Shown here: positions 7,443 through 11,339 of the stretch, piece after piece
Position numbering within the stretch: position 1 is the stretch's first letter
How the letters are laid out: every line of letters starts with the position of its first letter
NCBI GenBank assembly: GCA_947474005.1
Contig: CANJHI010000001.1
Location: 27,803-91,802 of the forward strand
Direction of reading: 5' to 3'
From: Alphaproteobacteria bacterium
Lineage (GTDB): Bacteria; Pseudomonadota; Alphaproteobacteria; Reyranellales; Reyranellaceae
Length of the DNA stretch: 64,000 bases
Made by a program: the position numbers and the translations under genes
Notes under the pieces: model-generated
Database searches by the model: none
What the model was told of the DNA's origin: nothing
The model's input: the letters and a program-made list of their open reading frames with translations, nothing else

Positions 7443-9155
7443 ATGCGTGAACTCCTCTCCGAATCCCGCCTCTCCGACATCATCGAGCAGGCGCGCGGCC
7501 ACGCACCGGCTGACCTCGTCATAAAAGACGTCGGCATCCTCGACCTCACCTCGGGCGAGATCAAAACCGGCGACATCGCCATCGCCGGCGACCGCATCGT
7601 CGGCACGCACGAGACTTATCGGGGCGCCACCGAGATCGACGGGCGCGGCCTCACCGCCGTGCCGGGGTTCATCGACGCCCACGTCCATTGCGAATCCACC
7701 CTGGTCACGCCGCTGGAGTTCGACCGCTGCGTCGTGCCGCGCGGCACCACCACGGCGATCTGCGATCCGCACGAGATCAGCAACGTGCTGGGCATCCCAG
7801 GGCTGAAGTATTTCCTCGAGTGCGCGATGGTCACGGTGATGGATTTGCGCGTCCAGCTCTCGTCGTGCGTGCCGTCGACCCATCTCGAAACCTCGGGCGC
7901 CACCTTGGAGGCCGAGGATCTGCTGCCGTTCAAGCATCATCCCAAGGTGCTGGGGCTGGCCGAGTTCATGAACGTGCCGGGCGTGCTGGCGCGCGATCCC
8001 AAGGTGCTGAAGAAGCTCGCGGCCTTCTCCGACGTGCAGATCGACGGCCATTCGCCGCTGCTGTCGTCCTATGATCTCAATGCCTATATCGCATCAGGCG
8101 TGCGCAACTGCCATGAGACGACGTCGGCGGAGGAAGCGCGCGAGAAGCTGCGCAAGGGCATGCAGATCCTGGTGCGCGAGGGCACGGTGTCCAAGGATCT
8201 GGCGGCGCTGGCCGAGCTGATCACGACGGAGCGCGCGCCGTTCCTGGCCTTCTGCACCGACGACCGCAACCCGCTCGACATCGCCGAGGAGGGCCATGTC
8301 GATTACCTGATCCGCGCCGCCATCCGGAAGGGCGTGAAGCCGCTCAACGCCTATCGCGCCGCCACCTGGTCGGCCGCCCGCCACTTCGGCCTGTTCGACC
8401 GCGGGCTGGTGGCGCCGGGCCAGCGCGCCGATCTCGTGCTGCTGGAGGATTTCGAAACCTGCGCCGTGAAGCAGGTGATCTGCCGGGGCGCCCTGGTCAC
8501 TCCGGACCGGTTCCGGACGCGGCCGGACGTGGCGCTGGTCGGGCTCGATTCGGTGAAGCTGCGGCCGGTGACGGCTGGGACGTTCCGGGTTCCGGCGGGT
8601 GCGGGCGGATCGCCGCCGGTGATCGGCATCCGGCCGGGCCAGATCCTGACGGACCGGCTCTCGGTCCCGGTGGCGCGGCGGGACGGCGCCTTCGTGGCCG
8701 ATACAGCGTCCGATGTGCTCAAGGTGGCGGTGCTGGGCCGCCACAACACCGAGGGCAGGGTCGGGCGCGGGTTCGTGAAGGGTTTCGGCATCGCGCGCGG
8801 CGCCATCGCCTCGTCGATCGGCCACGGCAGCCACAATGTCTGCGTCATCGGCTGCACCGACGCCGACATGGCCGTCGCCGTGAATCGCCTGATCGCGCTG
8901 AAGGGCGGCTTCGTGGCCGCCGTCAATGGCCAGGTGGTGGCCGAGCTGGCCCTGCCCATCGCCGGCCTGATGAGCGACCAGCCGTTCGAGACGGTGGAGC
9001 AGGGGCTGCGGGCGCTGCGCACCGCCGTGCGCGGCCTCGGCACCACGCTGCACGAGCCCTTCCTGCAGATGGCCTTCCTGCCGCTGCCGGTGATCCCCCA
9101 CCTCCGTATCACCGACAAGGGCCTGGTCGACGTCGATAAATTCGCACTGGTCTAA
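7443..9155 (+). CDS. ade: Adenine deaminase
   Basis: 570 aa; TAVPGFIDAHVHCESTLVTPLEFDRCVVPRGTTTAICDPHEISNVLG; C-terminal SSIGHGSHNVCVIG. Confidence 0.93.
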   Translation: MRELLSESRLSDIIEQARGHAPADLVIKDVGILDLTSGEIKTGDIAIAGDRIVGTHETYRGATEIDGRGLTAVPGFIDAHVHCESTLVTPLEFDRCVVPRGTTTAICDPHEISNVLGIPGLKYFLECAMVTVMDLRVQLSSCVPSTHLETSGATLEAEDLLPFKHHPKVLGLAEFMNVPGVLARDPKVLKKLAAFSDVQIDGHSPLLSSYDLNAYIASGVRNCHETTSAEEAREKLRKGMQILVREGTVSKDLAALAELITTERAPFLAFCTDDRNPLDIAEEGHVDYLIRAAIRKGVKPLNAYRAATWSAARHFGLFDRGLVAPGQRADLVLLEDFETCAVKQVICRGALVTPDRFRTRPDVALVGLDSVKLRPVTAGTFRVPAGAGGSPPVIGIRPGQILTDRLSVPVARRDGAFVADTASDVLKVAVLGRHNTEGRVGRGFVKGFGIARGAIASSIGHGSHNVCVIGCTDADMAVAVNRLIALKGGFVAAVNGQVVAELALPIAGLMSDQPFETVEQGLRALRTAVRGLGTTLHEPFLQMAFLPLPVIPHLRITDKGLVDVDKFALV

Positions 9156-9307
9156 CCGTCGCCCCGAGCGAAGCCGAGGGGCCTTGCCTGCAACAGACGA
9201 GGTCTCTCCACTACGCCTCGCTGCGCTCGGCTCCGGTCGAGACGACGGAAATATTTGCTGTCCCCGGCGGGCTGCACACGAAATCGTGATGGAAAAATAC
9301 TTGCAGG

Positions 9308-9336
9308 TTGAACAGGTTTTGAGTTAAGTTTACGAT
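9308..9336 (+). promoter_or_regulatory. Candidate sigma70-type promoter
   Basis: TTGAAC (9308-9313), 17-bp spacer, TACGAT (9331-9336), in an AT-richer non-coding stretch. Confidence 0.4.
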
Positions 9337-9343
9337 AGCATCG

Positions 9344-9393
9344 CCACGAAATGCGCAGGCCGCCCGGATCACCGATCCGGAGCGGCCTTTTTC
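9344..9393 (+). terminator. Strong intrinsic terminator-like hairpin
   Basis: AGGCCGCCCGGATC-ACC-GATCCGGAGCGGCCT followed by five T (9388-9392); outer CCACGAA/TTCGTGG can extend the stem. Confidence 0.65.
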
Positions 9394-9400
9394 GTGGACC

Positions 9401-9560
9401 GGTGGCGTCCCGCCACCAAGAACCTTTGGCCATGCCCCGCCCGGCGCGCCCGCCGGGTATAGTTCCCTGGAGGACCAGGGGAGGTCCCGCGGTCTGTACC
9501 GGATATTCGGTGTCCGACTACTGAACCGTGAGTAGCAAGCACAAGGCCGCCCCACCGCAT
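9401..9560. ncRNA. Candidate structured non-coding region (family unknown)
   Basis: Perfect short-loop hairpins: GGTGGCG-TCC-CGCCACC (9401-9417), CCCGGCG-CGCC-CGCCGGG (9440-9457), CCCTGG-AGGA-CCAGGG (9465-9480); no convincing protein in either strand. Confidence 0.3.
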
Positions 9561-9671
9561 TGACTGTCCGGCAGGTGGGTGGACCGAGGCGCAAAAACGC
9601 GTCCCAGCACATAGTTTTGACGGTCTACTGTGGCCGCCCGAGGTGGGGCCGCAGGGTCAGATTCTCGTCGA

Positions 9672-9742
9672 TGTCACAGGTGGGCGCTCAGCCTGTGTCA
9701 CAACATTTGTCTCAACTTGGTGTGACAATCTGGGATGTGACA
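9672..9742. repeat. Cluster of TGTCACA / TGTGACA heptamers
   Basis: TGTCACA at 9672-9678 and 9696-9702; TGTGACA at 9721-9727 and 9736-9742. Confidence 0.5.
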
Positions 9743-9743
9743 T

Positions 9744-11339
9744 TCACTTGTCGAACCAGACGTCCTCGAAGCGCGAGCCGTTGTAGAGGCTGTTCACCAT
9801 GGGGCTGAAACCCTTGACGTAGGGGTGCCAGCAGCTCCCCGAGGCGTTCCACATGATGATGGGCCGGGCGCCGTCCTCGAGCAGCTGCTTGTCGATCTGC
9901 CAGACGATTTGCTTCCGCTTCTCCACGTCGGTCTCGGCCGACTGCACCGGGAACAGCTTCTCGATCTCGGGATTGCAGTAGCCGGTGTAGTTGCGCTCCG
10001 ACTTGCAGGCGTAGTGCTCGAAATAGGTCTGGTCGGGATCATCGACGCCGTTGCCGGTGGTGTTGAGGCCGATCGAGTAGTCCTTGCGCGCCACCTTGGC
10101 GAACCACAGCGAGGTGTCGACGAGCTCGAGCTCGCCGTCGATGTAGACCTCCTTGAGCTGGTCGATCAGCAGCACGGCGGGGTCGCGGTAGAGCAGGTGG
10201 TTGCGGGTGGCGACTTTTAGCTTGAGCTTCTTGTCCGGTCCGTAGCCCGCCTTCTTCATGATCTCGCGGGCTTCCTCGCGGTTCTTCTTCACGTCGGGTC
10301 CGTAGCCCGGCACCGCGTCGTACATCGCCTGGGGCAGGCCCCACACGCCGTTGGGCGCCGGCTCCATGACGCCGCCGATGTCGGCCTCGCCCTGGTTGAT
10401 GATGTCGATGAAGGTCTTGCGGTCGATGCTGAGCAGCATGGCGCGGCGGACGTCGGCATTGTCGAACGGCGGCGCCTCGCGGTTCACGATCAGGTTGGTG
10501 CTGTTGTTCATCGCCGCCACTTCGCAGATCGCCTTGGGCGACTGGGTCTTCATGTCCTTCAAGAGCGGAATGGTGACGGCATAGGGCGCCGTCATGTCGT
10601 AGCGGTTGGTCACGAAGCCCAGGATCGCCGTGGCGCGGGCCGGCACGATCGAGAACTCGATGCCGTCGAGGTAGGGCTTGCCCTTCTTGAAGTAGTCGGG
10701 ATTGCGGGTGAGCCGCACGATCTCCTTCTGCTTCCATTCGGCGAGCTTGAACGGGCCGGTGCCGATCGGTTTGGTCCGCATTTCGGCGGCCGTGGCGTGG
10801 CAGGGATAGACCGGGCTGTAGCCGGAGGCCAGCAGCACCAGCAGCGAGGGCTGCGGGGCGCCGAGATGGAAGGTCGCCTCATAGTCGCCGTTGGTCGTGA
10901 TCTTCTCGACGTTCCAGTACCATGACGAGCGCGGGTTCTTGCGCAGCTTGGTCTCGCCCTTGCCGGCCAGCATGTCCCACGTGCACTTCACGTCCTTGGA
11001 GGTGAACGGCTTGCCGTCGTGCCATTTCACGCCCTGGTGCAGCTTGAAGGTGAGCTGCTTGCCGTCGGCGCTCCACGCCCAGCTTTCGGCCAGGTCGGGC
11101 CGGATGGTCTTCAGGCTGTTCTGCGGGATCTGCTGATCGAACAGCACCAGGTTGTTGTAGATTCCCATGAAGGGCACGACCGTCGAGGTCGTGGCCTCCT
11201 CGAGGATCGAGGCGCTTGGCGGGTTGTCCTGGAAGTACATCCTGAGCGTCCCGCCGCTCTTCTGCGCCAGCGCCGGAGATGCAGCGATTCCCAGGGCCGC
11301 CAGGGCGCACGATACTCCCGTCCAAAACCGCATTTTCAT
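9744..11339 (-). CDS. ABC transporter substrate-binding protein, family 5 (peptide/opine type)
   Basis: 531 aa; signal peptide, GGTLRMYFQDNPPSASI, PDLAESWAWSADGKQLTFKLHQGVKWHDGKPFTSKDV, DNADVRRAMLLSIDRK. Confidence 0.92.
   Translation of the reverse strand: MKMRFWTGVSCALAALGIAASPALAQKSGGTLRMYFQDNPPSASILEEATTSTVVPFMGIYNNLVLFDQQIPQNSLKTIRPDLAESWAWSADGKQLTFKLHQGVKWHDGKPFTSKDVKCTWDMLAGKGETKLRKNPRSSWYWNVEKITTNGDYEATFHLGAPQPSLLVLLASGYSPVYPCHATAAEMRTKPIGTGPFKLAEWKQKEIVRLTRNPDYFKKGKPYLDGIEFSIVPARATAILGFVTNRYDMTAPYAVTIPLLKDMKTQSPKAICEVAAMNNSTNLIVNREAPPFDNADVRRAMLLSIDRKTFIDIINQGEADIGGVMEPAPNGVWGLPQAMYDAVPGYGPDVKKNREEAREIMKKAGYGPDKKLKLKVATRNHLLYRDPAVLLIDQLKEVYIDGELELVDTSLWFAKVARKDYSIGLNTTGNGVDDPDQTYFEHYACKSERNYTGYCNPEIEKLFPVQSAETDVEKRKQIVWQIDKQLLEDGARPIIMWNASGSCWHPYVKGFSPMVNSLYNGSRFEDVWFDK

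Follow-up and report, generated by a model that had tools for sequence, protein, structure and literature searches.

The window analyzed here is a 64,000-nucleotide stretch of a contig from an alphaproteobacterium of the Reyranellaceae (GenBank assembly GCA_947474005.1). It contains a large non-coding gap in which four short-loop hairpins (H1–H4) follow one another, and this raises the question of whether the array is one structured RNA or several elements, which strand carries it, and what kind of element it is. The gap measures 588 bp (9156–9743; 590 bp in the first-pass annotation) and lies between two convergent genes, an adenine deaminase on the plus strand that ends at 9155 and an SBP_bac_5 ABC substrate-binding protein on the minus strand with its stop codon at 9744. 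Protein homology of the minus-strand ORF 9211–9612, previously named as a check on the non-coding reading, was sought in Pfam and PHROG and none was found; two further gap ORFs likewise matched no family in either.

A search of the same genome (G000) with the gap returned 44 matches that fall into separate groups, and the gap is a mosaic of dispersed repeats (Table 1). The first of these is a REP-like repeat adjoining the adenine deaminase stop codon; its stretch 9200–9249 has many 84–98% copies in the genome, and it is probably separate from the RNA element described below. All four hairpins are present at or near the positions first reported, with the exception that H1, initially described as perfect, contains a bulge. 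They do not constitute the single unit that was proposed: H1 and H2 are part of one repeat module, H3 and H4 of another, and the two are separable. The former module, which includes a promoter-like sequence (P), H1 and the beginning of H2, lies around 9295–9413 of the window and recurs in G000, and P with H1 is also found without the core to which H3 belongs.

The plus strand of 9338–9560 folds at −109.7 kcal/mol compared with a mean of −87.0 for shuffled sequences (z −4.82; 0 of 200 as good), and the minus strand folds more weakly (z −2.05). None of the Rfam 15 covariance models, including those for GOLLD, ROOL, HEARO and riboswitches, reaches its gathering score in the window, in agreement with the earlier failure to match the gap to 6S, tmRNA, RNase P or SRP RNA; permissive thresholds yield only chance-level matches, and an RcsR1-like match on the H1 region was rejected (15 bits against a gathering score of 60). 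We interpret the feature, at a probability of roughly 0.6, as a member of a family of dispersed, modular non-coding RNA elements that are structured and probably selfish and that spread or are homogenized within Reyranella genomes.

Table 1. Features of the gap, in coordinates of the window.
Feature	Position	Strand	Description
REP-like dispersed repeat	9156–9250		Inverted arms 9156–9178 / 9226–9248
Putative family promoter P, degenerate copy	9301–9331	+	TTGCAGGTTGAACAGGTTTTGAGTTAAGTTT; from family comparison
5' domain	9344–9397	+	CCACGAAA (9344–9351) pairs with TTTCGTGG (9390–9397) as outer closure of H1, then TTTTT
H1	9357–9388	+	AGGCCGC+CCGGATC / GATCCGG+GCGGCCT, A9381 bulged
H2	9401–9417	+	Perfect; joins 5' domain to core
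Core repeat unit	9420–9742	+	~323 bp; sharp ends GAACCTTTGG...TGTGACA
Conserved junction	9435–9481	+	CCCC 9435–9438 / GGGG 9478–9481 around H3 (9439–9458), and UCC 9464–9466 / GGA 9472–9474
H3	9440–9457	+	Perfect; part of covarying conserved structure
H4	9465–9480	+	Perfect in window copy; not conserved; competes with conserved fold
Core helix GTCCG/TGGAC	9566–9584	+	99% of cells paired
Core helix GGCGC/GCGTC	9588–9603	+	Strongest covariation
Core helix CTGTGGCCGC / GGGGCCGCAG	9628–9654	+	C-G/U-G/U-A variation in 79 copies
3' iteron tail	9672–9742		Array TGTCACA/TGTCTCA/TGTGACA; ends one base before stop codon of neighboring gene

Covariation and distribution of the core

Core matches in G000 total 15; the near-full copies number 14—the window copy and 13 others at 81–89% identity—and there are truncated ones besides. 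Seventy-nine copies from 13 genomes were aligned, and their flanks diverge sharply at both ends. The structure was examined in 34 diverse aligned copies using a consensus derived from related sequences, which comprises the CCCC/GGGG pairing around H3, the UCC/GGA mini-hairpin and two further helices; 97.0% of its cells are paired. Its covariation score is 0.138 versus 0.079 for shuffled alignments, with 0 of 500 shuffles as good—a control that is inflated by the kinship of the aligned sequences—and it is far above all slid versions of the consensus. Compensatory changes are seen in the junction at pairs 36/50 and 38/49, and among the 34 copies the clearest covarying pair, in the GGCGC/GCGTC helix, occurs 19 times as C-G and 14 times as U-A. 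Many core pairs, including much of H3, are invariant and are uninformative on structure; in a distant copy (L346) the H3 stem persists with other letters at its innermost positions.

The covariation supports a plus-strand RNA structure for the core. The first-pass annotation had allowed either strand, and this can be refined to plus, as P lies upstream on that strand and the frequent G-U pairs (for example, one that is G-U in 24 copies and A-U in 10) are compatible with the plus strand only, many of them becoming A-C on the minus. H3 and H4 as first drawn have 88.7% of cells paired in the same 34 copies, with no excess over shuffles. H4 was rejected as a conserved hairpin, since pair 44/51 is broken in 25 of the 34 copies and there is no covariation; it exists in the sequence as reported and is restricted to copies of the window genome. 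What remains of the proposed novel structured RNA or intergenic element is a region that is structured, lacks an Rfam match and covaries among its relatives, in modules rather than as one unit.

The iterons or inverted repeats of the tail vary by element type (TGTCACA, GGGCCC, GTGCGCAC, CCGGACA/CAGACA and GGCACA; L026–L031, L285, L349, L018 and L153), with a similar layout throughout, as if bound by different proteins. At one G000 locus (C99; L024:1–190) the core tail is interrupted by what appears by eye to be an IS transposase C-terminus; we rejected the solo tail there as a transposon end, since the adjoining frame looks IS transposase-like, which favors insertion of an IS into a copy. Of the 61 copies that could be assigned, 48 run into a convergent gene, the strand of neighboring genes being judged by codon-position GC and not by annotation; no neighbor is constant. 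This placement, the variable iteron tail and the REP-like neighbor would all suit an intergenic element acting as DNA (a palindromic repeat, protein-binding iterons, or a barrier or terminator between convergent genes) with the RNA fold as a by-product, a reading that we nonetheless find quite improbable because a DNA site would not be expected to have a strand-specific P upstream, or to show G-U pairs on the plus strand together with covariation in helices of the junction type.

The core was found in 15 of 61 sampled Reyranella genomes, and a covariance model built for it (R1) matches 16 of 65, with 1–21 matches each. The model has no match in 11 genomes of neighboring genera, a class-level sample of about 380 other Alphaproteobacteria genomes contains no core, and no match to the element was seen in phages, plasmids or viral contigs. 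Within the genomes and collections searched, the family is confined to one branch of Reyranella. A metagenome-assembled genome with many copies (CAMDOT01) is titled 'Rhizobium sp. Q54'; it was placed in Reyranella, and the title is probably wrong.

The proposed family promoter and the bodies behind it

Of the 74 testable core copies, 63 have P (consensus TTGCAGGTTYAGCAGG-N7-CTATATTT) or a close variant of it 65–713 bp upstream, on the same strand; the corresponding numbers for the controls are 0 (reverse complement), 1 (shuffled) and 0 (downstream side). With no more than three mismatches allowed, the pattern has 19 sites in G000 and its reversed version has none. P and the core share exactly the same 15 of the 61 genomes, a co-occurrence that may in part reflect a single clade. 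The window copy of P is five edits from the consensus and a simple sigma-70 scan finds no promoter there, so the promoter assignment rests on the family comparison; given this degeneracy the window copy is probably weak. In many copies (L304 and L313, for example) a palindrome, TGCTGGCA-N-TGCCAGCA, is located tens of bases upstream of P and is a possible regulator site.

The H1 stem is almost invariant in 26 copies, and in 26 of 26 it is followed by a U-tract (at least four T). Together these look like an intrinsic terminator, which a simple scan overlooks, probably owing to the bulge. Other copies have a second class of H1 with the same bulged A, a similar loop and several compensatory pair exchanges, and with no U-tract; these hairpins were chosen for pairing, and the evidence that they offer lies in the pairs swapped from one class to the other rather than in the percentage paired. 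The 3' arm of H2 is retained mainly where an H1-type 5' domain precedes the core.

Other structured-looking bodies also lie behind P, including a B2 type (GGCATGACCCGCCCGCGCACGCCGCGGG...), an X type of about 0.6 kb, and others. Such sites occur in several genomes (for example L376–L399) and in G000 itself (C23 (L304), C48 and C80). The 3' part of the X body has, in several copies, a candidate small ORF with the start ATGAACAG behind GGAGAG (L018, L019, L020, L032 and L033). Genome G031 contains 21 P sites and only two core matches, so the core family is just one part of a larger superfamily.

In one further arrangement in G000 (C31; L311:1621–2109), a terminator-like hairpin separates P from an apparently orphan gene resembling a phage Sf6-type terminase small subunit (phrog_4044). 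This could be taken to suggest that the window feature is what is left of a coding gene or of a phage element, which is extremely improbable: the gap ORFs and the phage, viral-contig and plasmid collections gave no match, and indels between core copies break the reading frames while the structure is retained.

The order of parts that we propose is P, a 5' domain in which CACGA/TCGTG closes the bulged hairpin, optional middle modules, the folded core and the iteron tail, the last of which would stop beside the 3' end of a neighboring and usually convergent gene. Transcription of the plus strand is inferred to begin at P. Where a copy resembles that of the window, H1 and its U-tract would terminate or attenuate the transcript, and the core would therefore be made only on read-through; where H1 is of the class with no U-tract, the core would be transcribed directly.

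An intrinsic-terminator-like H1 would also suit an sRNA gene, and a promoter heading many structured bodies, together with core segments that are very strongly conserved, could be taken as the mark of a host multigene family of small or long regulatory RNAs under one regulator of P, with bodies that are different regulators useful to the cell and kept alike by gene conversion. This is the main rival to a selfish-like element; we hold it to be possible though rather unlikely.

Copies, loci and probable spread

A tree of 79 cores places 13 of the 14 G000 copies, the window copy among them, in one clade (support 100/95). Sister species carry a core at the window locus, yet the window copy groups by genome and not by locus. 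Across species this locus has promoter, H1 and core in three, promoter and H1 with another tail and no core in two, and neither in three; for a different G000 locus (L014) the other species yielded no close orthologue. At the locus of an EamA-type gene the promoter is kept in most species and the bodies differ (core, B2 and others). Bodies that differ behind the promoter at orthologous loci indicate that loci can be old and their bodies replaced. The EamA-locus copies of four genomes (G022, G039, G051 and G060) cluster together in the core tree, and some copies are therefore inherited vertically like ordinary genes.

Conserved promoter loci and partial vertical inheritance would be at home in a regulatory RNA family, whereas the patchy distribution, the range of 1–21 copies, the clustering by genome, the positions at convergent gene ends without a constant neighbor, and the presence of damaged and truncated copies fit a repeat better. 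We conclude that the element is probably selfish and non-autonomous. Its copies would multiply or overwrite one another within a genome, the route being transposition in trans or else gene conversion guided by the promoter and tail that they have in common, and the latter would explain the exchange of bodies.

Two candidate movers were rejected for lack of association with carriers. Reverse transcriptase (movement by a group II intron or otherwise RT-driven) was undetected in the draft genome G000 and is present in 4 of 15 carriers versus 16 of 46 non-carriers, all counted in draft genomes; Y1 transposase (Y1_Tnp) was also undetected in the G000 draft and is present in 2 of 15 versus 15 of 46. 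The ends are sharp and only one of them bears the iteron tail; inspection by eye recognized neither a target-site duplication nor a left end matching the tail, and no autonomous partner turned up. A more far-reaching scheme, which we consider unlikely, is a SINE-like bacterial system of clade-wide exchangeable RNA cassettes with one promoter, whose bodies and tails are shuffled between fixed loci and whose tail type (TGTCACA, GGGCCC, CCGGACA, GGCACA and so on) would select the copying enzyme.

If the selfish-element reading is correct, it adds a large unnamed structured RNA family with its own dispersed promoter, missed by current annotation and amounting to 15 core matches in G000 and, in a relative, as many as 21. 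It would also make a natural experiment in how bacterial non-coding repeats spread, recombine and turn into regulatory RNA genes, since different bodies replace one another behind promoters that stay in place at orthologous loci.

Relationship to known elements

No published description of the element was found in the open-access literature, our searches found no related sequence outside Reyranella, and no sequence shared with known families was detected. REP/RAYT (Y1) elements are likewise dispersed intergenic palindromes, and the Reyranella element differs in being far longer and modular, and in that Y1_Tnp is undetected in G000 and not linked to carriers. GOLLD, ROOL and OLE are long multi-domain structured bacterial RNAs of unclear function (PMC12286853). 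The fullest Reyranella copies would be comparable, with about 0.6–0.7 kb between P and the core and roughly a further 0.3 kb of core; unlike those RNAs, the Reyranella element has no Rfam match and occurs as dispersed chromosomal copies absent from phage collections. The HEARO or omega RNA of IscB-IsrB elements is a structured RNA of about 340 nt (PMC12286853); the Reyranella element differs again in having no match in Rfam, and beside the copies inspected no linked nuclease ORF was noticed.

Two families of interspersed repeats are closer in kind. BRE is a Betaproteobacteria repeat of about 90 bp that overlaps the Bordetella sRNA region bprJ1/J2, and the available text of its description presents it, like the Reyranella element, as an intergenic repeat linked to RNA (transcribed in the case of BRE) with variable copy number and mobile features (PMC3110155). 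It is shorter, of other sequence and from another bacterial class, and that text describes no common promoter or multi-domain core. The repeats bcr1–bcr18 of the Bacillus cereus group are non-coding, interspersed, 100–400 bp long and group-restricted, with up to 130 copies per genome and features of mobile elements (PMC6542083). The Reyranella element is likewise interspersed, non-coding, restricted to one group and variable in copy number. Mobility of the bcr repeats is tied to TTTAT repeats (PMC6542083), a motif not noticed at the Reyranella core ends viewed, and the Reyranella element is further set apart by the conserved promoter that heads it and by the exchange of its modules.
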